NCBI GenBank assembly: GCA_016235815.1
Contig: JACRIM010000052.1
Location: 1 to 64,000, forward strand
Length of the DNA: 64,000 nucleotides
Source: Planctomycetota bacterium
GTDB taxonomy: Bacteria > Planctomycetota > Phycisphaerae > UBA1845 > UTPLA1
Reading direction: 5' to 3'
Positions within the stretch are counted from its first letter, which is position 1, and the number at the start of each line of letters is the position of its first letter. Shown here piece by piece: positions 3,165 through 43,734 of the stretch. The notes under the pieces were generated by a model. The model had not been told where the DNA came from and did no database searches. It saw only the letters and a list, made by a program, of their open reading frames with translations. The translations under genes and the position numbers were made by a program.

Positions 3165-3380
3165 ATGGCTTTCCTGATCTTGCTCATATTGTGGCTATAC
3201 CTGAGCATCGGCGTGATGTTCGGTGTCGCTTTTGCCTGGCGAGGCGCTGATCAAATCGACCCATCGGCGCACGGTGCCCCTGCGATGTTTCGACTACTGA
3301 TTCTGCCAGGAGCGATCGCGTTTTGGCCGATGCTGGCGCACCGCTGGCGTCGAGCCGTGTTGACAAGAGACGAATCATGA
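3165..3380 (+). CDS. Small membrane protein, first gene of the Rieske/ferric-reductase operon
   Basis: A 71-residue protein with two likely membrane helices: residues 2-25, starting MAFLILLILWLYLSIGVMF, and about 42-58. Between them lies a short polar loop, and the C-terminus is basic. No catalytic residues are apparent. Its stop codon overlaps the ATG of the next gene (ATGA at 3377), so translation is probably coupled. Four consecutive genes overlap by 4-8 bases up to 5401, pointing to a shared membrane complex. The function is unknown; an accessory role for the heme/Rieske protein is inferred from position. Confidence 0.7.
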   Translation: MAFLILLILWLYLSIGVMFGVAFAWRGADQIDPSAHGAPAMFRLLILPGAIAFWPMLAHRWRRAVLTRDES

Positions 3381-3568
3381 CGCGGTCGTTGCGGCGCTGG
3401 CACATCCGTTTCTGGTTGATACTTGGACCCTTGATTGCGATCGGACTCCTCGTGGCATTGATCGACCGTCCGCCGGCCCCCGCACAGACCGAAATCCAAC
3501 CTGTTCTCAGGCACCCCGATCGCTCGGCCATCGGCACCCAAGTGACCATGAATGGGAGAGATCCGTGA
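3377..3568 (+). CDS. Small single-span membrane protein of the Rieske operon
   Basis: A 63-residue protein with a basic N-terminus (MTRSLRRWHIRFW), one membrane helix (about residues 12-31) and an outer tail ending before the next start. An in-frame ATG exists 54 bases upstream, but the ATG at 3377 overlaps the previous stop and fits the operon spacing. It overlaps the following GTG start by four bases. It has no recognisable domain. A subunit or assembly factor for the downstream electron-transfer protein is plausible but unproven. Confidence 0.65.
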   Translation: MTRSLRRWHIRFWLILGPLIAIGLLVALIDRPPAPAQTEIQPVLRHPDRSAIGTQVTMNGRDP

Positions 3569-4635
3569 GCGTAGGCTACGTCGCCGTCCAGTGGAATCGC
3601 CACAAGCGCATCTATGATGGGCTGGTTGCCAGCGGGGTTGCCTGCTACCTGGTCGTGTTCTTTCTCGCCGGCCGGACGCTGTACACAGGTCAAAATGCAA
3701 TCAGCCCAGAAATCCTAGTAATGCGGGCCCTGGGCACCTGTGCGTATCTGCTGCTGCACATCATCCTCTGCATCGGTCCCCTGGCTCGGCTCGACCGACG
3801 GTTTCTTCCACTTCTCTACAACCGACGACATCTCGGCGTCGCCACCTTCCTGGTAGCGCTCGCGCATGGTGTTGTGGCAATCGGTTTCTATCATGGCTTT
3901 GGCATCCTGAATCCGTTTGTGTCACTCCTGACCAGCAATACGAATTATGGTTCGCTCACAGCATTTCCATTCCAGATTCTGGGCGCGATCGCGCTTTCCA
4001 TCCTGTTTCTTATGGCTTCGACCAGCCACGATTTCTGGCTCAGGAATCTCGGCGCATCGGCGTGGAAGCGATTGCACATGCTCGTCTATCCCGCTTACGG
4101 CCTGGTGGTCATGCACGTTGCGTTGGGAATACTCCAGGCACAACGCAGCCCCTGGCTTGCGGCACTGGTCGCGACAGGTGTCACGATGGTCGCCGGCCTC
4201 CACATCCTGGCAGGCACACGCGAACATCGACGCGATCAACACGAATCACATCGCACAAGGATCAACGGCGAGCCTTGGGTGGATGTCGGTTCGGTCGATG
4301 ACATCGCCGACGAGCATGGATCGACCGTCTCCGTAAACGGGGGCGAACGTATCGCCCTGTTTCGCCACCGCGGTTGCATCTCGGCAACGACGAATGTCTG
4401 TGCACACCAGGGTGGCCCGCTCGGCGAAGGCCGGATCATCGACGGCTGCATCACATGCCCGTGGCATGGCTGGCAGTACCGATCGGCCGACGGTCAATCT
4501 CCGCCGCCTTTTACCGAGAAAATCGTGACCTATCGCGTGCGCGTGATTGCCGGACGAATCCAGGTCGATCCGACAGCGCTCACGCCGGGGACAGCCGTCG
4601 ATCCGGCTCGCATTGAGGAGACCGTGCATGTCTGA
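3565..4635 (+). CDS. Ferric-reductase-like membrane domain fused to a Rieske 2Fe-2S domain
   Basis: A 356-residue protein starting at GTG 3565. The first roughly 215 residues contain about six hydrophobic helices with repeated histidines (LLLHIILCIG, VALAHGVVAIG, KRLHMLVYP, VVMHVALG), as in heme-binding ferric-reductase/MsrQ-type domains. Residues about 235-345 form a Rieske domain with both ligand motifs, CAHQGGPLGEG and CPWHGWQY (CxH...CxxH). One polypeptide thus joins heme b and an iron-sulfur cluster, so it probably moves electrons across or along the cytoplasmic membrane. The partner oxidant and reductant are unknown. It is translationally coupled to genes on both sides. Confidence 0.9.
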   Translation: MSVGYVAVQWNRHKRIYDGLVASGVACYLVVFFLAGRTLYTGQNAISPEILVMRALGTCAYLLLHIILCIGPLARLDRRFLPLLYNRRHLGVATFLVALAHGVVAIGFYHGFGILNPFVSLLTSNTNYGSLTAFPFQILGAIALSILFLMASTSHDFWLRNLGASAWKRLHMLVYPAYGLVVMHVALGILQAQRSPWLAALVATGVTMVAGLHILAGTREHRRDQHESHRTRINGEPWVDVGSVDDIADEHGSTVSVNGGERIALFRHRGCISATTNVCAHQGGPLGEGRIIDGCITCPWHGWQYRSADGQSPPPFTEKIVTYRVRVIAGRIQVDPTALTPGTAVDPARIEETVHV

Positions 4636-5401
4636 GACAAATGACTTTTACGTGGGATACCTGCGCATGCCGACGGGGTTGAACCGTTTCATACGTTGGA
4701 CGGCACCCATGCTGATTGCGGCAGCGCTGGCCACAGCGTGGTCCCTGTCGCGGTCGCAAAACAATCCCGGCGATGGCGTGTGGCATGACGACGCAGAGTC
4801 CCTGGTGGGGCGCCTGTCCACATATCCGTACCCCCATATTCGCATCTTGTCCACGCAGCACGGAGACGCCGTCCAATCCATTGAGACGGTGCTTCTGGTG
4901 TCCGAAGGCAAGCATGGCGGTGGCGAACGCGTCGCCGGATTGGATGGACGAATTGCCAGGGTGCGTGGCACGATACTGGAACGCGATGGTCGGCGATTGC
5001 TCGAATTATCTGAAACGGACGCCGCGAAAGCCGAAGATGCGACGCCGTCGCCAGATGCGGCACGACTGGCGGCCCCCCATGTCGTCGCGATGGGATCAGT
5101 TACATTGCAGGGGGAGATCATCGACCCCAAGTGCTACTCCGGCGCGATGAAACCGGGCGAGGGCAAGGCCCACAAGGAATGCGCAACGCTTTGCATCGCC
5201 GGCGGCATTCCACCAATGTTCGTGACTCGGAATGCAGCCGGAAAACGCAACTACTACCTGCTGACGGACCCCAATGGCCGGGCCCTCGACGATCGCATAT
5301 TGCCGTTCGTCGCAGACGCCGTTCAAGTCACCGGCGAGCTGGAGCGGCGCGACGACCTTCTCGTGCTCAGAATCAATCCGGCTGACATCCGCCGTCTTTG
5401 A
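4628..5401 (+). CDS. Membrane-anchored protein of unknown function with a Cys/His motif, Rieske partner
   Basis: A 257-residue protein. The start at 4628 overlaps the end of the Rieske gene by eight bases. One membrane helix lies at about residues 23-41 (RWTAPMLIAAALATAWSL). The C-terminal half holds a striking conserved-looking motif, IDPKCYSGAMKPGEGKAHKE then CATLCIAGGIPPMFV, with three cysteines and a histidine that could bind metal or a cofactor. It is followed by a small beta-rich, OB-like region (VQVTGELERRDDLLVLRI). I recognise this as a recurring neighbour of Rieske/ferric-reductase proteins but know no function. An electron-transfer or maturation role is inferred. Confidence 0.7.
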   Translation: MSETNDFYVGYLRMPTGLNRFIRWTAPMLIAAALATAWSLSRSQNNPGDGVWHDDAESLVGRLSTYPYPHIRILSTQHGDAVQSIETVLLVSEGKHGGGERVAGLDGRIARVRGTILERDGRRLLELSETDAAKAEDATPSPDAARLAAPHVVAMGSVTLQGEIIDPKCYSGAMKPGEGKAHKECATLCIAGGIPPMFVTRNAAGKRNYYLLTDPNGRALDDRILPFVADAVQVTGELERRDDLLVLRINPADIRRL

Positions 5402-5523: not shown

Positions 5524-6462
5524 ATGTCCATCGTCCGTTTCGCTTTCATGCCTGCGCTCGTCGCGACTTCAATCGCAAGCGTGGCAGCCTTGAGCGCCGC
5601 GCCCGCTGATTTCGCGGTCACCTCCAGCGACAAGTCGTTTCGACTCTCCGAGGCGCGCGGCACGTTCGTAGCGCTGCACTTTCTTCTCAAGACGGATTGC
5701 CCGTATTGCCAGCGATACGTCGCGGATATCGTGCGCCGCGCGCCCGATGTTGCCGGCGTCACGCACATTTTTCTGAAGCCGGACTCCGAAGAAGAAGTCA
5801 AGGCCTGGTCGGAGAAGCTCAAGCAGGCCGGCGTCGACGCGACGATTTATCGAGATCCCGATGCCAAGCTCGCGGATGAATTCAGGATTCCTGATGGATA
5901 TGCGTTTCACGGGCAGACTGTGCACTTCCCAGCGCTCGTTCTACTCGGTCCGGAGGGCCGCGAGGCTTTCCGATATGTCGGAAAGGACAACACGGACCGG
6001 CTTCCATTCGATCAACTGGCCGCGAAGATCGCCGAACTCTCGAAGAACGCGGCAATCGCGGAATACAACCTGTCCGATCGCGCCATGGCGCTGGGCGGAT
6101 TCGATCCGGTTGCGTACATCGATGCCGGACAGGCGCGACCGGGGAAGCCGGAACTGACCAGTCGATATCGTGGCGTTGCCTATCGATTCGAGAGCAAACA
6201 GAACCAACGCAAGTTCGCCGACAATCCCGGGAAATATGTGCCCGCCTATGGCGGATGGTGCGCCACCGCGATGGCCGACGGCCGCAAAGTCGAAGTCGAT
6301 CCCGAGAATTTCAAGGTGACTGACGGCAGACTCTTTCTGTTCTACAAGGGCTGGCTCGGAGACGCGCGCAAAGACTGGAACAAAGACGAGAAGAAGCTGA
6401 CCGCCCGCGCGAATGAGCAATGGCGCAGAATCGCGCCCACCGATGCGATTGAAAGGAAGTGA
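5524..6462 (+). CDS. Secreted redoxin-YHS fusion protein
   Basis: A 312-residue protein with a signal peptide (residues 1-25, ending SAAPA). An AhpC/TlpA-like thioredoxin fold occupies about residues 28-175, with the active-site-like motif TDCPYCQRY (CxxC). A YHS domain follows at about 195-285 (LGGFDPVAYIDAG, YRGVAYRFESKQNQRKF, PAYGGWCATAMADG). YHS domains are associated with metal or heme handling, and redoxins with thiol or peroxide reduction. Export of both on one chain suggests a periplasmic redox or metal role. It is followed closely by a DoxX-type gene, in line with a small redox operon. The exact substrate is unknown. Confidence 0.85.
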   Translation: MSIVRFAFMPALVATSIASVAALSAAPADFAVTSSDKSFRLSEARGTFVALHFLLKTDCPYCQRYVADIVRRAPDVAGVTHIFLKPDSEEEVKAWSEKLKQAGVDATIYRDPDAKLADEFRIPDGYAFHGQTVHFPALVLLGPEGREAFRYVGKDNTDRLPFDQLAAKIAELSKNAAIAEYNLSDRAMALGGFDPVAYIDAGQARPGKPELTSRYRGVAYRFESKQNQRKFADNPGKYVPAYGGWCATAMADGRKVEVDPENFKVTDGRLFLFYKGWLGDARKDWNKDEKKLTARANEQWRRIAPTDAIERK

Positions 6463-36553: not shown

Positions 36554-39500
36554 TCATTGCGTTGCGGCCAGTGGCGAGCATGAATCCAACGCGTTGTCCG
36601 AAACAAGATGGAATGCACCAAACCGAAGCGCCAGCGTGGGCAGGACGAGAAGGTTGAGTAACGTCGACGTGGCCAATCCGCCAAGAATGACGATGGCCAT
36701 GGGGCCTTCGATTTCGCGACCGGCCTCACCGCTGCCCAGCGCAATGGGTAAGAGCCCCAACGCCGTGACAATTGCCGTCATGAGCACGGGGACGATTCGT
36801 TCGGTAGCGCCCCGAATGGCTGTTTCAAGACACCAGATGCGCCCTTCGGATCGAACCAGATGGTCGAAGTGCGAGATCATCATGATGGAGTTTCGCGTCG
36901 TGATGCCGAAGAGTGTGACAAAGCCGACGAGCGAACCGACGGAGAGCGAGCCGCCCGTCATAAAGACGGCCAAAATCCCGCCGACCATGGCGAAGGGCAG
37001 ATTGACCAGCACGAGCATCAGGTTGCGGAAGTTGCCAAAGACCATGCCCAGCAGCAGGACGATGCCGACGCCTGCAAGCGTTGAATGCATGAGCAACTCC
37101 GTGCGCGCGGTGCGGCGCTCTTCCTCGGCGCCGCTGAAAACGGCGTAATAACCGGTGGGCAGCTTGACGTGATCGGCGATTTTCGCCTTGGCCTCGGCGA
37201 CGACGTCGTTCAAATCGCGACCTTCGATATTGCAGGTGATGGCCTGTCGGCGGCGTGCGCCCTCGTGAGACACGGTATAGCGGCCGTTCTTGGGATAGAT
37301 GTCGGCCAGCTCACGAAGCGGAATTCGGACGCCTTGATCGTTGTGGATCATCAGGCTGCCGATGGATTCGGGGTCCTGCCTCGATGCCGCATCGAGAATG
37401 ACGGCAATGTCGAACACCCGATTGCCTTCATAGACTTGGCCCGCCGTCGTGCCCTGAAATGCCGTTTGGATGGTGTCGAGCGCGTCGGCCGGCTTCATGC
37501 CGAATTGAATCAGACGATCGGGTCGAAGGTGAACGATCATTTGCGGAAGGACCGGCATGCCCGGGACCTGGACATCGACCGCGCCGGAGACCTCTGAAAG
37601 TACACGGGCGACGTCACGGGCCTTGTCATCGAGTGTATCGAGATCGTCGCCATACAGCGCGACCACAAACTCGGCCGTTTCGCCGGAGATGGATTCTTCA
37701 ATGCGTTCAGTCAGAAATGCCTTGATGCCGAAAAAGGCGCCGGGAAATTTGCTGAGCGTCTCCCGAATCTGCGACTGCACCTCTTCCTCTTCCTCGCCGC
37801 TTATTCTTTCCAACTCGACGTGATACTCGCAGAGGTGGGGTCCCCAGGGATCCTCACCCAATTCGGCCCGGCCGATTTGCTGCTCGACCGTGGCGATGTG
37901 CGGGATTTTCAGAAGTTCCTCGGTCACCCGGCTGCCCAGTCGGCGCATTTCCGCCAGGCCGGTCCCTGGGGCAACGGCCATGTGGACGACGAAATGGCCC
38001 TCGCGGAACTCCGGCAGAAACTCGCCGCCGAAGAAGGGAATCATCGAGGCCGCGGCAATACAAAGAATCACGGCGCCGACGATGAGACGCCCCGGGCGCG
38101 TGCTCCACCGTTGCAGGAGGCGGGCGTAATGATCCTTGATTCGCACGAGGATGGCAGGTTCGTGCCACGTGGTCGGCTTCTTGGCCAGGAGCACGGCGCT
38201 CAGGGCGGGCGTGACGGTCAGCGCGACCAGCAGTGACGCCATGACGGCGAGGATGTACGCGATCGCCAGCGGGGCGAAGAGGCGCCCGCCGATACCCGAC
38301 ATGGTGAGCACCGGCAGGAAGACGAGTGCGACCACAAACGTGGCATAGACCACGGCGCTGCGTACTTCCAATGAGGCGTCGAGCACGACGCGGAGGCTGT
38401 GGATGGGCGATCCGGCGGACCAGTTCTCGCGCAGGCGGCGGAAGATGTTTTCGACGTCGATGATCGCATCGTCCACGACTTCGCCGATGGCGATGGCCAG
38501 ACCGCCGAGCGTAATGGTGTTGATGGTGACGCCAAACCAGTTCAACACGGCGACGGCCGTCAGCAGTGATAGCGGAATGGCGGTGAGCGAGATAAAACCG
38601 GTACGCAAATTATAGAGAAACAGAAAGAGAACGACGCCGACCAGCACACCGCCAAGCAGGAGGGAGCTTTTCATGTTGTGCATGGCGTTTTCGATGAAGT
38701 TCGCGGCGCGGAACATCCTCGGGTACACCTTGATTTCGTTTGCGTCGAGAATTGGCTTTAGTTCATCAAGTGCTCCCTCAACGGCGGTGGTGGCTTCGAG
38801 CGTGTTCGCGCCAAATTGGCTGAGCAGGGTGAGCAATACGCCGTTTCGCCCCTGCACAAGACAGTCGCCGAATTTCGGCTCTGGCGCATCGACGACGTGG
38901 GCCACGTCGCGTAGCCGTACCGATCCCGAGTCGCTGGACCGCACGACAACCTGACCGAGCTGCTCGGCGGTGATGGATTGCCCCTCGCTCTGGATCACCA
39001 CGCGCTGGCCCGCCGTCTCGATGAATCCAGCGCCGCGCACCGCCGACGCGGTGCGCGCGGCCGAAAGCACTTCAGTCAATGAAAGGTGAAACGCAATCAA
39101 CCGTTCCGGCTGAACCTGAATCTGGAGCTGCCGAACGTCGCCGCCGAACACGTTGACCTTTGCAACCCCCGGCGCGGCGAGCAAACGTGGTCGAATGGTC
39201 CAGTCGGCCAGCGTTCGCAGTTCCATCGGCGACATCTTGTCGGTAACGAGGCCGATTTTGATGAGGTCCATTGTGGCCGACGTGAGGGGCGTCATGCGCG
39301 GGGATTTGACTCCGACCGGAAGACGCTCGGTGGTCTGGGCAAGAAGTTCGGAAAGAAGTTGCCTGGCGAGGAACACATCGCTTCCGGACTGAAAGACCAC
39401 TGTAATTACGGAAAGGCCCTGAATGGATTGTGAGCGAATTGCTTCCAAATGGCCCACGCCATTGACGGCGTTCTCAATCGGCTGCGTGACGAGGACCTCC

Positions 39501-39682
39501 ACCTGTTCGGCCGAGAGGCCCGGCGCCTCGGTTTGGATCGTGACCTGTGGCGGAAGGAACTCCGGAAAGACATCGAGTTTGCTGCGCGATGCGACGAAGG
39601 CTCCATACCCGAGCGAAAGACATGCCAGTGCAATGACAATGGCACGATGCCGAACCGAAAACGTAACGAGACCGGTCAGCAT
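36554..39682 (-). CDS. Heavy-metal-type RND efflux pump, inner membrane subunit (CusA/CzcA family)
   Basis: A 1042-residue RND permease of normal length with twelve expected helices and two large periplasmic loops. Signature stretches include [20 protein letters not shown], the membrane acidic motif [20 protein letters not shown] in helix 4, and [17 protein letters not shown] near the end. This HME subclass exports metal cations (Cu, Ag, Zn, Co, Cd) by proton antiport together with an adaptor and an outer-membrane channel. The metal cannot be read with confidence; a CusR-box-like site upstream of the operon hints at copper or silver. Its start overlaps the adaptor stop by one base. Confidence 0.93.
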
Positions 39683-40974
39683 TACTCGGCTTCCGATTCA
39701 AACTGAGATTTAAGTTCTTCGGACAGCAGAATCTGTGCGCCGGCAGTGACAACGCGATCATTCGGTTGAAAGCCCTTGTCGACAAACCAGCCTTCCGGGG
39801 TAGGCTCGTTCAGGGGTGCTTCCTTTCGGATAAAACCGTCCCCCGTGCTTTGCACATACACCCATGCAGCACCGCCAAACCTCACGATCGCATCACGCGG
39901 GATTGTCACGCCGTTTCGCACGTCCGTCGTTCGAGGGATAAAGGCCTGCACCGCCATTCCCGGACGCAACGTGCGTTCGCCAGGGGTTACGCGCAGGATG
40001 AGACCCTGCCCGCGCGTCTTCAGATCGACGTCAGGAGCAACGCCCACGAATTCCGCCGCGAGGGCGTTTTCTTCATCGCCCAAAATCGCAAGTCGGCAAG
40101 GCTGCGACTCATTGCCCGCCGGTAAGCGCATGGCGACCGGCTCGATGTACTGACCGGCGGGAAGCTCGACGCGAGCAAGCAATTTATCGAAGCGTTGAAC
40201 CCGCATGAGTGCCTGGCCGCTCTCAACGGACTCGCCGGGTTCGGCAAGCACGTCCGCCACATCGCCGCCGCCTTCGATTGCGAGCGGTAGCGGGCGGCTG
40301 GTGCCGGAGGCTTCGGTGAGGGAGGCCTCAAGCATTTGGACGTTTTCCCTCGCCGAGTCGAGGCGGGCTTCCCAGGCTTTGACTTTTGCCTCAACTTCTT
40401 CAAGCGTGCGATCGGACACGATCTTGTTTTCCGTGTTGAGGCGTTTCTTATTCTCGAAGGACGCGCGGGCGGCGAGAAGCTCGGCCTCATCCTCCTTGAC
40501 GTCCGCCTTCGCCGTGGAGAGTCTCGCCATCAAATCGACACGATCCATCGGGCCGAACCTGGGAGAAATCAATCCGACCACCTCGGCATTCGCGATGTGC
40601 TCTCCGACGTTTGGCCAATTGCGATTCGGTGCGGCATGAAGGGTCCCGGTCAGGGGCGCGCGCAGGGTATGGCGGCATGAGGGGTCTTCCTGCAAGGCGC
40701 CGATTGCGATCATGTGTGGTCGCAGGGTGACCGCGGAAAGTGCAGTGGTTTTTAGGGCGATTCGCTCCTGCGTTGCAAGGTCCAGTGTGATAAGGATTGT
40801 TCCATCGGGCGATCGTTTGACACTGGACGGCGCGTGAATGGATTCTTCCGCCTCTTTCTCATGCTCGGCTTCGCTTTGACCAGCGCGGAACCCCCAAAGT
40901 CCCAACGCGGCGAGGACCGCGACAAAAACGAATCCCAAGACATAGTTGATTGACCGAGTCATTTCGACGCTCAA
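39682..40974 (-). CDS. RND periplasmic adaptor (CusB/HlyD family)
   Basis: A 430-residue membrane-fusion protein with an N-terminal signal or anchor helix (SINYVLGFVFVAVLAALGLW), a lipoyl-like beta domain (APLTGTLHAAPNRNWPNVGE), a long alpha-helical hairpin (about 130-215) and the beta-barrel and membrane-proximal domains (ILRVTPGERTLRPGMAVQAF, VVTAGAQILLSEELKSQFES). It links the pump to the outer-membrane channel. No obvious methionine-rich copper site is seen at the N-terminus, though histidines occur (AEHEKEAEESIHA). The neighbouring genes make the tripartite system complete. Confidence 0.92.
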   Translation of the reverse strand: MSVEMTRSINYVLGFVFVAVLAALGLWGFRAGQSEAEHEKEAEESIHAPSSVKRSPDGTILITLDLATQERIALKTTALSAVTLRPHMIAIGALQEDPSCRHTLRAPLTGTLHAAPNRNWPNVGEHIANAEVVGLISPRFGPMDRVDLMARLSTAKADVKEDEAELLAARASFENKKRLNTENKIVSDRTLEEVEAKVKAWEARLDSARENVQMLEASLTEASGTSRPLPLAIEGGGDVADVLAEPGESVESGQALMRVQRFDKLLARVELPAGQYIEPVAMRLPAGNESQPCRLAILGDEENALAAEFVGVAPDVDLKTRGQGLILRVTPGERTLRPGMAVQAFIPRTTDVRNGVTIPRDAIVRFGGAAWVYVQSTGDGFIRKEAPLNEPTPEGWFVDKGFQPNDRVVTAGAQILLSEELKSQFESEAE

Positions 40975-41007
40975 TTCGGGAACGGAGCGAACCGTGGCTC
41001 CATTGGT

Positions 41008-41106
41008 TCAGAACAAGAATGCGGCGAGGAGTTGCCGCAGGAAGTCGGTGACGAAGGCAATCAACGTCATAACGAACGCGCTCAGTGGATCAAACGTCGT
41101 GTTCAT
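41008..41106 (-). CDS. Small 32-residue hydrophobic protein within the RND operon
   Basis: Read on the minus strand, an ATG at 41106 preceded by AGGGAG opens 32 codons to a TGA at 41008-41010. It begins MNTTFDPLSA and continues with a helix such as FVMTLIAFVTDFLRQLL, then ends AAFLF, giving one membrane helix. It lies exactly between the TolC-like gene (26 bases downstream of its stop) and the adaptor start (33 bases). Tiny membrane proteins such as AcrZ are known to bind RND pumps; a similar role is inferred from position and shape only. Confidence 0.6.
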   Translation of the reverse strand: MNTTFDPLSAFVMTLIAFVTDFLRQLLAAFLF

Positions 41107-41131
41107 TGTGGTCCTGCTCCCTCGGTATCGT

Positions 41132-42655
41132 TCATTGTCCGGCTTGTGGGGTGGCGACCGGTTGCGTGGTCGGCGTCATCACCACCGGCAGTCGTCCGCC
41201 CTCGATACGCTGCAGTTCCGTCATCGCGATTGCGTAATCGCGGCGTACGTTGTTGTCAGCCAGCCGCTGGCTGATCATGAATCGCTGTGCATCGATAAGG
41301 GCCACGATACTCTGTTCGCCGGCCTTATAGGCTCGCATCGCTACTTCGACGTTTTGCCGGGCCTGCGGAATCGTCGTTTCTTCATAGTATTGAACAAGCT
41401 CACCGGCGGCCCGAAGCACGGCCGTCGCTTCCTGCACCTGTCGAGCGATGGTATCCAGCAATTCTTCGTAGGACTTTTTCTTCTCCACGAGTTGATACTG
41501 TGCTTTTGCGATCTGGGCCTGGTTCTGATCCCAAATCGGAACCTTGACGGTAAGCGTCGGGCCGAAAAGAGAATCAATGATCTGGCGACGTTCGAGGTCA
41601 CGCTGGCCCTTGGTCTGTATTTCCGGTGCGGTCAGGGTTCCGGCTCGCGTCGACGCACGGGCGGTGTCAGCAAGAACCTGGCGACCAGGAAGCGCGCGGC
41701 GCTCGGTTCGTTCCAACTCGGCTCCGACGGTTACGCTGGAGAACACATTGAGAAGTTGCCTGCGTACCTCCGCATCGGCCTGTCGAACAGCGAACTCGGC
41801 CGCTCTCGCATCGAGGCGCTCGTCAAGTGCGAATTGAAGATAGGAGTCGTCGTCGGCGACCACGTGACGCGGCAGATCCAGCGAGCCAGACAGGTTCCAC
41901 GCGGCGTTCAATCGCGATAGCCCCATTTCCTTGGCCAAGGCTGCCTTTTCGGTTTGCAAATCGCGCTGAATGGTGATGCGGTTGATGCGCACCTCGATGA
42001 GGCTGGCCCGTACCAGATTAACATCCAACTGGCTCGTTTCTCCCGCCTTGAAGCGATCCTCCGCAAGCTTGAGGGACCGATCCACCAAGGTCATGTTTTC
42101 ACGGGTAATCTCCTCCGCGCGTTGCAGCGCGAGAAGGCGATAGCACGCTTGGCGCGTGGAGGCGGCGAGGTTCACTCCGCTCTGAACGACCTCCATGACC
42201 GTCTGCTCAAGTTGCGCCCGGGCAACAGCCTTGCGAACCGGAATCTGCCAGAGATCGACGAGTTCCTGGCCGAAATTAAACGTAAGGTTGGAGCGGCCGC
42301 CCCCTTCCGGAAACCGTGCCATAAAGCCGAACGTCGGATTGGACAGAAGGCCGGACTGCACGACATCGGCGCTGGAGGCGCCGATTCGCGCGAAGAGCGC
42401 CTGAAAGCCGCGATTGCGCAGCAAAGCGATTCGAACAGCGTCGTCGACCGTCAGTCCATCGGAAAGAAGCGCGGTTACTTTATCATCCACAAAGGCATCC
42501 GCTGCGGGATCGTAGGCCTCGTCGAGGTTGTTTCGTTCCTTTAAAGCGGCGGCGGTTCGTTGGTAGTCCGGCTCTGGGTGAACTTTGGCGCAGCCAACGA
42601 GTAGGCATGGCACCGTCAACAAAGCACATCCGCGGATCGTATGAAATGGACTCAT
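41132..42655 (-). CDS. TolC/CusC-like outer-membrane efflux lipoprotein
   Basis: About 507 residues from the ATG at 42655, chosen because it directly starts a lipoprotein signal (MSPFHTIRGCALLTVPCLL then VGC, lipobox Cys near residue 22); the ATG at 42769 overlaps the upstream gene and adds 38 residues. Two outer-membrane efflux protein repeats follow, rich in long helices (NFGQELVDLWQIPVRKAVAR, LVEKKKSYEELLDTIARQ). It forms the trimeric exit duct for the RND pump. The C-terminus is proline/threonine-rich. It belongs to the minus-strand metal efflux operon. Confidence 0.9.
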   Translation of the reverse strand: MSPFHTIRGCALLTVPCLLVGCAKVHPEPDYQRTAAALKERNNLDEAYDPAADAFVDDKVTALLSDGLTVDDAVRIALLRNRGFQALFARIGASSADVVQSGLLSNPTFGFMARFPEGGGRSNLTFNFGQELVDLWQIPVRKAVARAQLEQTVMEVVQSGVNLAASTRQACYRLLALQRAEEITRENMTLVDRSLKLAEDRFKAGETSQLDVNLVRASLIEVRINRITIQRDLQTEKAALAKEMGLSRLNAAWNLSGSLDLPRHVVADDDSYLQFALDERLDARAAEFAVRQADAEVRRQLLNVFSSVTVGAELERTERRALPGRQVLADTARASTRAGTLTAPEIQTKGQRDLERRQIIDSLFGPTLTVKVPIWDQNQAQIAKAQYQLVEKKKSYEELLDTIARQVQEATAVLRAAGELVQYYEETTIPQARQNVEVAMRAYKAGEQSIVALIDAQRFMISQRLADNNVRRDYAIAMTELQRIEGGRLPVVMTPTTQPVATPQAGQ

Positions 42656-42765
42656 GCGGCGAATTGTCGGCAGAATGAGCATAATGGGAAAGGGCCCACG
42701 ATGGTGGGAAGGAATATTACGAATCGGCCATCCGCGGCTGATCGGCGACGAGGCGATGCGAATTC

Positions 42766-43734
42766 TCAAAAGGAATACATGATTCGGATCCCTGCGCCAA
42801 AATTGGGAGTTTCTTCGTTGTCATCCAGGCCGATCAGAATGCCGGGGCCGATCGTGAGGTGCTCGGCAACATGCCATTCCGATGATAATTCCAGCGCATT
42901 GACGTTGGCATGGCTGTCTTCTTCGCTTGATTGGTGGAAGTAGTCGCCGATGAGGGCGAAGTCGTCGCGGAGCCGCCACTTGTAGCCGGTGCGAAATCCC
43001 CACTGGAAGTGTCGAACGTCTTCAACGTTATTACCATTGGCCGTCGTGACGAATCCGTTTAGGTACATCGTCCCGGGGCCAATGTCCTTGGCCACAATGC
43101 CGGTGAGCGTACCGTCCAAACCCGAGGATTCATATCCCGTGGGGAGTCGAACCTCGGCATAGGTCGCCAGCGTGGGCATCGCGCCGTCTTCCTTCACCTA
43201 CCGTTGCTGCCAGCCGAGTTCGATATCACCGTTACCCTGAACGCCGCCCAGCCCCATTTCGAGTGGGACACCCAGCGTTAGTTGCATGTTTCGGAGGAAG
43301 TCGGTCCCGTCCGGGTTGTACTGTAGTTCGCCTCTCCACAACGCAGGATCATGTGAACCCGACGTCGTAAGCCAGCCAAACTCCAACTGCAATTCAAATG
43401 TTCCAGGGTCTCCTGGCTGGCCGTCCTCAAGGGAGCAGTAGGAGTCCACGGATTGCCGGGCGGTCACAGGGTCTTCCGTCAGGCGGCTCTTTGTTTCGCT
43501 TGTCGACGAGGCTTTCTCGTCGGTGGTTTGAGCCGATTGTCGACTCGGACTGCGCGAATCGTCCGCCTGGACGAGCTGCATGGGTTGAGCATCATTCGCA
43601 TAACCACGGACTGCCCGGGTTTGATTTCCCTTCGCAGGGTAGCCGTCTCGAGGATATTGCGACTGCGCGACGGCCACACCGGCAAAAAGAAAAAAAGCAG
43701 CAACTGTGAAAAACCGTGATTCCGAACCAAACAT
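42766..43734 (-). pseudogene. Porin-like (MetA-degradation type) protein interrupted by an in-frame TAG
   Basis: One continuous minus-strand frame runs from the ATG at 43734 (AAGGAC before it; signal peptide FFTVAAFFLFAGVAVAQSQ) to the stop at 42766, except for a single TAG at 43198-43200. Before the stop the protein reads GNGDIELGWQQR and after it VKEDGAMPTLATYAEVRLP, which join smoothly in homologous barrels. A TTG-to-TAG change is the simplest cause. The product would be an outer-membrane barrel ending in the typical aromatic residue (IRIMYSF). It is the first gene of the RND operon. It could be a recent nonsense mutation, a sequencing error or readthrough; the downstream half might restart at the GTG right after the TAG. 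Confidence 0.8.

Follow-up and report, generated by a model that had tools for sequence, protein, structure and literature searches.

A conserved gene cluster around a ferric-reductase/Rieske fusion as a candidate route for electrons across the bacterial inner membrane

The ways in which bacteria pass electrons over the inner membrane to acceptors outside the cytoplasm are under active study. Routes based on ferric-reductase-like membrane domains (FRD) or on MsrQ-like proteins use NAD(P)H domains, a flavin reductase, quinol, molybdopterin partners or flavinylated partners. A 64-kb stretch of DNA from a Planctomycetota bacterium (assembly GCA_016235815.1, contig JACRIM010000052.1) raised the question of whether such a route can be built differently. 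This stretch, here called the window, corresponds to positions 1 to 64000 of contig C35 in a genome of 4.58 Mb. Near its left end lie four genes, encoding two small membrane proteins (g1 and g2), an FRD fused to a Rieske domain (g3), and a membrane-anchored protein with a cysteine/histidine site (g4). Rieske entry and an uncharacterised Cys3His protein with modelled OB folds on the same cytochrome would constitute a further route. We propose that g1 to g4 make up one inner-membrane electron-transfer module of the MsrQ/FRD type, which would send electrons outward to g4, and assign this reading a probability of about 0.6. The cluster is conserved and apparently undescribed.

Gene order, co-occurrence and natural fusions

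The preliminary description of this DNA had reported four coupled reading frames at 3165-5401, and their coordinates proved exact, with overlaps of 4 (g1/g2), 4 (g2/g3) and 8 bases (g3/g4). It had also tied its proposal of a complex to the occurrence of the same genes together elsewhere, which was borne out. Among 392 Planctomycetota genomes, g3 was present in 27 (E ≤ 1e-30), all of which also carried g4 (E ≤ 1e-20). Matches to g4 were found in 38 of the 392 genomes at E ≤ 1e-3 and in 29 at E ≤ 1e-20; the other 2 of these 29 (G016 and G285) contained a partial g4 without g3. The frame in G016 comprised the second OB-like domain only and was followed by a gene for a Rieske-glutamate-synthase-like protein, and that in G285 was a fragment. 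At 44 of the 46 full-length g4 loci found beyond the window, g3 was located directly upstream of g4, with g1 further upstream. A sample of 296 Bacteroidota genomes gave a g4 match in 17 (10 full length and 7 short), and g3 adjoined g4 at all 10 full-length loci. Pseudomonadota were covered through plasmid records only, in which five Rhizobium entries matched g3 and five matched g4. Three annotated Rhizobium plasmid loci read SDR, g1, g2, g3, g4 and a 70-aa gene, and a fourth, unannotated one read SDR, g1, g3 in two frames (L097), and g4. The order g1-(g2)-g3-g4 recurs in Planctomycetota, Bacteroidota and Rhizobium plasmids—i.e., in three phyla.

At four loci (L040, L066, L069, and L078), g3 and g4 form a single open frame. 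When 48 g3 rows were placed on a maximum-likelihood tree, the fused label required at least four changes, all of them forced by supported branches, and this repeated fusion is strong evidence of joint function. The natural fusions also provide single-chain constructs for spectroscopy and structure determination. A structural model of the L040 fusion (mean predicted local distance difference test score [pLDDT], 76.1; predicted template modeling score, 0.54), whose underlying alignment misplaces the g4 anchor helix, runs from six helices through the Rieske domain to one more helix, the seventh, and a pair of OB domains. In this order, the membrane would separate the Rieske domain from the Cys/His site.

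Membership of g3 in PF01794 and PF00355 is given by Pfam scores above the cut-offs and by the expected His and Cys ligands. The FRD heme positions in two helices (H89, H101, H171, and H184) and the Rieske ligands (C279, H281, C298, and H301; C-x-H ... C-x2-H) were invariant in 48/48 rows; of two further histidines, H155 was invariant and H213 was kept in 47 of the 48. Hydropathy analysis revealed six hydrophobic segments, and a positive-inside count located positive charge on the N terminus, on loops 2-3 and 4-5, and past helix 6. Together, segments and charge distribution predict that both termini of g3 face the cytosol, so that the Rieske domain would be cytosolic.

The two small genes are part of the same arrangement. 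g1 was found at 44/44 loci where g3 adjoins g4, and its residues G16, D32, W54, and P55 were invariant in 44/44 rows of an alignment that left out rows longer than 130 aa (L062, L076, and L078). An ORF (open reading frame) of 31 to 192 aa occupied the g2 position between g1 and g3 at 41 of the 44 loci, and most of these ORFs start with M-x-x-x-[LQ]-R-[RK]-x-H. With start sites picked to favour small gaps, 28 of the 41 overlapped g1 by 4 bases and 17 overlapped g3 to the same extent. No ORF was found between g1 and g3 in the other three loci (L055, L076, and L078); the g1 frame extends up to g3 in L076 and L078, so that g1 and g2 may be fused there.

The features of the locus are compiled in Table 1, including g5, a neighbour outside the core that starts 122 bases 3' of g4. 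Searches of Pfam and NCBIfam gave no match above cut-off for g1, g2, or g4, and comparison with PHROGs yielded weak matches to unknowns only. A promoter scan of the locus found none, and terminators were at the level of shuffled sequence.

Table 1. Genes, domains and motif of the locus (window positions)
Feature	Position	Strand	Description
g1	3165-3380	+	71 aa; two hydrophobic segments, hydropathy peaks at 1 and 40
g2	3377-3568	+	63 aa; one hydrophobic segment; N-terminal R-x-H/W pattern
g3	3565-4635	+	356 aa, GTG start; six-helix ferric-reductase-like membrane domain and C-terminal Rieske domain
Ferric_reduct (PF01794) of g3	3730-4107	+	residues 56-181; E 9.6e-13; 48.7 bits, cut-off 28
Rieske (PF00355) of g3	4276-4497	+	residues 238-311; E 1.4e-15; 57.4 bits, cut-off 20.3
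g4	4628-5401	+	257 aa; helix 16-43 and two OB-like domains (about 51-150 and 151-257)
Cys/His motif of g4	5123-5215	+	residues 166-196: D166, C169, H182, C185, C189, G192, G193, P195, P196
g5	5524-6462	+	AhpC/TSA and YHS (seleno)protein domain; YHS_seleno_dom 117.2 bits, cut-off 70

The anchored protein g4 and its Cys/His site

An AlphaFold2 model of g4 based on 18 sequences (mean pLDDT, 84.0) contained one helix and two beta domains. Both domains align to OB-fold proteins in VIA-align at Z scores of 5.6 to 7.4, which are weak, being below 8. Foldseek returned no match to the model at E ≤ 0.001; generic OB proteins were all that either comparison gave, and it is possible that the fold family was absent from the search. 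By sequence, g4 had no match in the PDB up to E 10, and it scored 13.9 bits against DUF5818 (PF19135), under the gathering score of 27. The nearest named relatives are from metagenome-assembled genomes of Phycisphaerae and other Planctomycetota, with 65 to 68% identity. The g4 family is unannotated and has stand-alone exported members as well; the module offers a defined test of its function.

The cysteines of g4 are C169, C185, and C189 only, and H182 is one of six histidines. All four residues are carried by the second OB-like domain and were invariant in 47/47 full-length rows (the window and 46 loci), as were D166, G192, G193, P195, and P196. The four were also kept in all 56 rows once nine short or partial homologues had been added, a conservation that is partly by construction in the nine short rows, since resemblance to g4 was the criterion by which loci were collected. 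H182, C185, and C189 are spaced i, i+3, and i+7, beside or in a predicted helix (183-191), and fall within 60 degrees on a helical wheel, on one face of that helix. The Cys/His motif had been put forward in the preliminary description as a candidate for a novel metal or cluster site. It is indeed present, and its C, H, C, and C are invariant, but the serine of "CYSGAM" is not conserved: relatives mostly read "CYFGVM" or "CYLGVM," which places the serine outside the conserved site. As judged from sequence, the site of three cysteines and one histidine is a candidate redox or metal centre.

Proposed electron route, related systems and partner enzymes

In the proposed module, the point of entry for electrons, from a donor that may vary among genomes, would be the Rieske [2Fe-2S] domain of g3 in the cytosol; they would then cross the membrane via two stacked b hemes in the six-helix FRD. 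H89/H171 would be the ligand pair on the cytosolic side and H101/H184 the pair on the outer side. Electrons would exit to g4, as a membrane-anchored extracytoplasmic protein whose Cys/His site may itself perform the final reduction or may pass electrons on to a further substrate. As for g1 and g2, they would be small subunits in the membrane that help in assembly or make contacts.

This layout resembles MsrQ (YedZ) of MsrPQ, the periplasmic methionine sulfoxide reductase, in which an FRD-type heme subunit likewise feeds an extracytoplasmic partner encoded next to it. g3 does match the NCBIfam model of MsrQ (NF003831; E 1.1e-13), but with 51.2 bits, below the cut-off of 130. It differs from MsrQ by its Rieske domain and by having four heme histidines, compared to three in YedZ according to the available part of a survey of the FRD superfamily (PMC3591440). 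No molybdopterin domain of the MsrP type was found by Pfam in g1 to g5, to which the search for MsrP was confined. Given the score below cut-off and the lack of a molybdopterin partner among g1 to g5, we did not assign the cluster to MsrPQ.

A second likeness is to MsrQ-like flavinylated extracytosolic systems (eLife 2021, PMC8238504), where, in the available portion of that paper, a six-helix, two-heme protein of PF01794 likewise delivers electrons to an extracytosolic partner. g3 has a Rieske domain where these systems have a C-terminal NAD-binding domain, and the OB/Cys-His domain of g4 stands where they have the flavinylated protein. MsrQ-like systems with flavinylated partners have been described, and "Rieske" is absent from the main texts as available (PMC8238504 and PMC10979944). 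A flavinylated partner was rejected for the present cluster: no FMN-binding Pfam domain occurs in g1 to g5, and the SGAM of g4 is not conserved. NOX/FRE NADPH oxidases and ferric reductases likewise contain an FRD with four heme histidines; g3 was not placed among them, as it has no FAD or NAD(P) domain and ends in a Rieske domain instead. Nor does it belong to a complex of the cytochrome bc1/b6f type, as it matches Ferric_reduct and no cytochrome b family; FAD, NAD(P)H, and cytochrome b family domains were all absent from its Pfam matches. The solved chains nearest to the g3 Rieske domain are dioxygenase-type Rieske ferredoxins (naphthalene and nitroarene dioxygenase systems), whereas g3 joins this domain to a membrane cytochrome and the core encodes no oxygenase.

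A figure legend in Zhang et al. 2013 (PMC3591440) already names an FRD protein with a Rieske domain, as architecture model M4. FMN is likewise assigned to M4 there, and the accessible part of that survey describes no gene cluster or g4-like protein. As for the earlier claim of an undescribed complex, no description of the cluster or of g4 was found in the open-access full-text literature as available (including PMC5676040, PMC8238504, PMC10979944, and PMC3591440).

Clusters of many relatives also hold proteins that combine a Rieske domain with TPP or with Glu_synthase domains, which are missing from the cluster in the window. Such Rieske-tagged enzymes accompany the core in about half of the core-bearing Planctomycetota genomes. 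The best NCBIfam match of the Rieske-TPP enzyme is pyruvate oxidase, below cut-off. The glutamate-synthase-like protein was matched in 38 of the 392 genomes, 13 of them with the core, so that 14 of the 27 core genomes were without it. When the Rieske part was within the match, 26 genomes remained, 13 with the core versus 1.8 expected (Fisher p 2e-10, in a test that ignores the relatedness of genomes). In a selection of 80 genomes, Rieske-TPP proteins occurred in 11/13 with both the core and the glutamate-synthase-like protein, in 0/14 with the core only, and in 4/25 with the glutamate-synthase-like protein but no core, one of the four being G016 with its partial g4. In the Bacteroidota of this set, they were found in 6/12 genomes with and 0/16 without the core. 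A Rieske-FMN reductase directly follows g4 in L035 and L069, and the window's genome encodes a Rieske + FMN_red protein on a separate contig (C24). These varying partner sets suggest that the core works with differing donors.

At one locus (L065:1063-4677), the Rieske + Glu_synthase and Rieske + TPP genes are located side by side; this set of fusions was not found in the open-access literature. At another (L038:1151-2389), a Na+/H+ exchanger gene directly precedes the Rieske-TPP gene, and a member of the exchanger's sequence cluster was present somewhere in 11 of the loci compared, all from Bacteroidota.

Competing explanations and genomic surroundings

Several observations weigh against the proposed outward module. 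Two short Saprospiraceae contigs (L037 and L052) keep g3 apart from g4, and g3 was found elsewhere in the genome in both cases. Loop 175-179 of g4 was modelled at a pLDDT below 50, and the g4 anchor helix in the window shows low hydrophobicity (best mean over 19 residues, 1.21; above 1.6 in 43 of 44 relatives). Neither the Rieske-TPP nor the Rieske-glutamate-synthase-like protein is present in the window's genome. Its Rieske-FMN reductase had seemed a likely donor from its place behind g4 in L035 and L069, but it showed no significant association with the core, which was found in 3 of 19 carriers among the 392 genomes (p 0.13).

That the four genes are chance or merely operonic neighbours with no common function is extremely improbable: overlapping genes as such are frequent in operons, but the co-occurrence in 27/27 genomes, on which we rejected this explanation, is joined by four fusions and the same order in three phyla. 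Electrons might instead run in the opposite direction, supplied by g4 or by quinol from the outside or the membrane and fed by the g3 Rieske domain into cytosolic reductases. The soluble enzymes that go with the core in many relatives bear Rieske domains of their own, and the Rieske-glutamate-synthase-like protein is strongly tied to the core (13 of 26 genomes, compared to 27 of 392 overall); enzymes of the glutamate synthase type are usually electron consumers. We nevertheless regard reversed flow as unlikely, since the TPP partner most resembles pyruvate oxidases, which are electron-yielding enzymes, 14 of the 27 core genomes are without the glutamate-synthase-like partner, and characterised FRD proteins move electrons outwards according to the available parts of two studies (PMC8238504 and PMC3591440). 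A site in g4 that is structural (e.g., zinc) or a disulfide would leave g4 as a scaffold or a quinone-site lid, with another periplasmic protein as acceptor. Structural zinc is often held by three cysteines and one histidine, OB folds generally serve in binding rather than in redox chemistry, and the fold search of g4 returned generic OB proteins only. We consider this reading rather unlikely; a redox role fits better with the invariance of the site over three phyla and in stand-alone exported homologues, and with the repeated fusion to an electron-transfer protein.

A metalloreductase or a function in metal homeostasis, with g4 binding Cu or Fe outside and g3 reducing the metal, as FRE and STEAP proteins do, would draw on the presence of ferric and cupric reductases within the FRD family (PMC3591440, in the part available) and on several genomic contexts. 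A short exported OB/Cys-His homologue shares a copper-resistance island on a plasmid of Phycisphaera mikurensis with a Rieske protein, another lies beside an RND pump (L082), and a third near a metal-sensing repressor (L141); moreover, L033, L034, L042, L045, L050, and L066 each encode a YHS-domain protein downstream of g4 and on its strand (with other ORFs between in L066). However, such metal context was seen at 3 of 13 short-homologue loci (leaving out L145 and L148, which had no match by the motif filter), with nothing similar at the other 10, and by eye no metal genes lie directly beside the core in the listed relatives, except for a P-type cation ATPase upstream in L033. On balance, a metal-directed role appears improbable. 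We retain the outward module as the preferred reading. A bolder extension of it, a modular "Rieske bus," would have g3 trade electrons with several soluble enzymes bearing related Rieske domains (Rieske-TPP, Rieske-glutamate-synthase-like, and Rieske-FMN reductase), with an OB-fold redox domain of a new class on the far side that holds a Cys3His metal or [2Fe-2S] site in the beta1-beta2 loop. We regard this extension as rather doubtful; if true, the stand-alone exported OB/Cys-His copies in other bacteria would make up a family of soluble carriers for electrons outside the cytoplasm.

On the P. mikurensis plasmid (L140:6893-8590), the short Cys/His OB protein, a DUF2231 membrane protein and the Rieske protein are encoded in a row, and this trio may be a counterpart of the module with a different construction. 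In the window itself, a 419-aa ORF that by eye is tyrosine recombinase/integrase-like ends 197 bases before a tRNA-Gly(ccc) gene at 2233-2304 (region 777-2304); an integrated element probably has its edge here, immediately to the left of the operon. Ahead of the operon, at 2490-2575, the sequence atttccgttgatgtcgaatggtggcag is repeated in tandem. Farther to the right, three ORFs on the minus strand (36554-42769) appear by eye to encode an RND heavy-metal efflux set, consisting of a CusA/CzcA-like protein, an adaptor, and a TolC-like protein.

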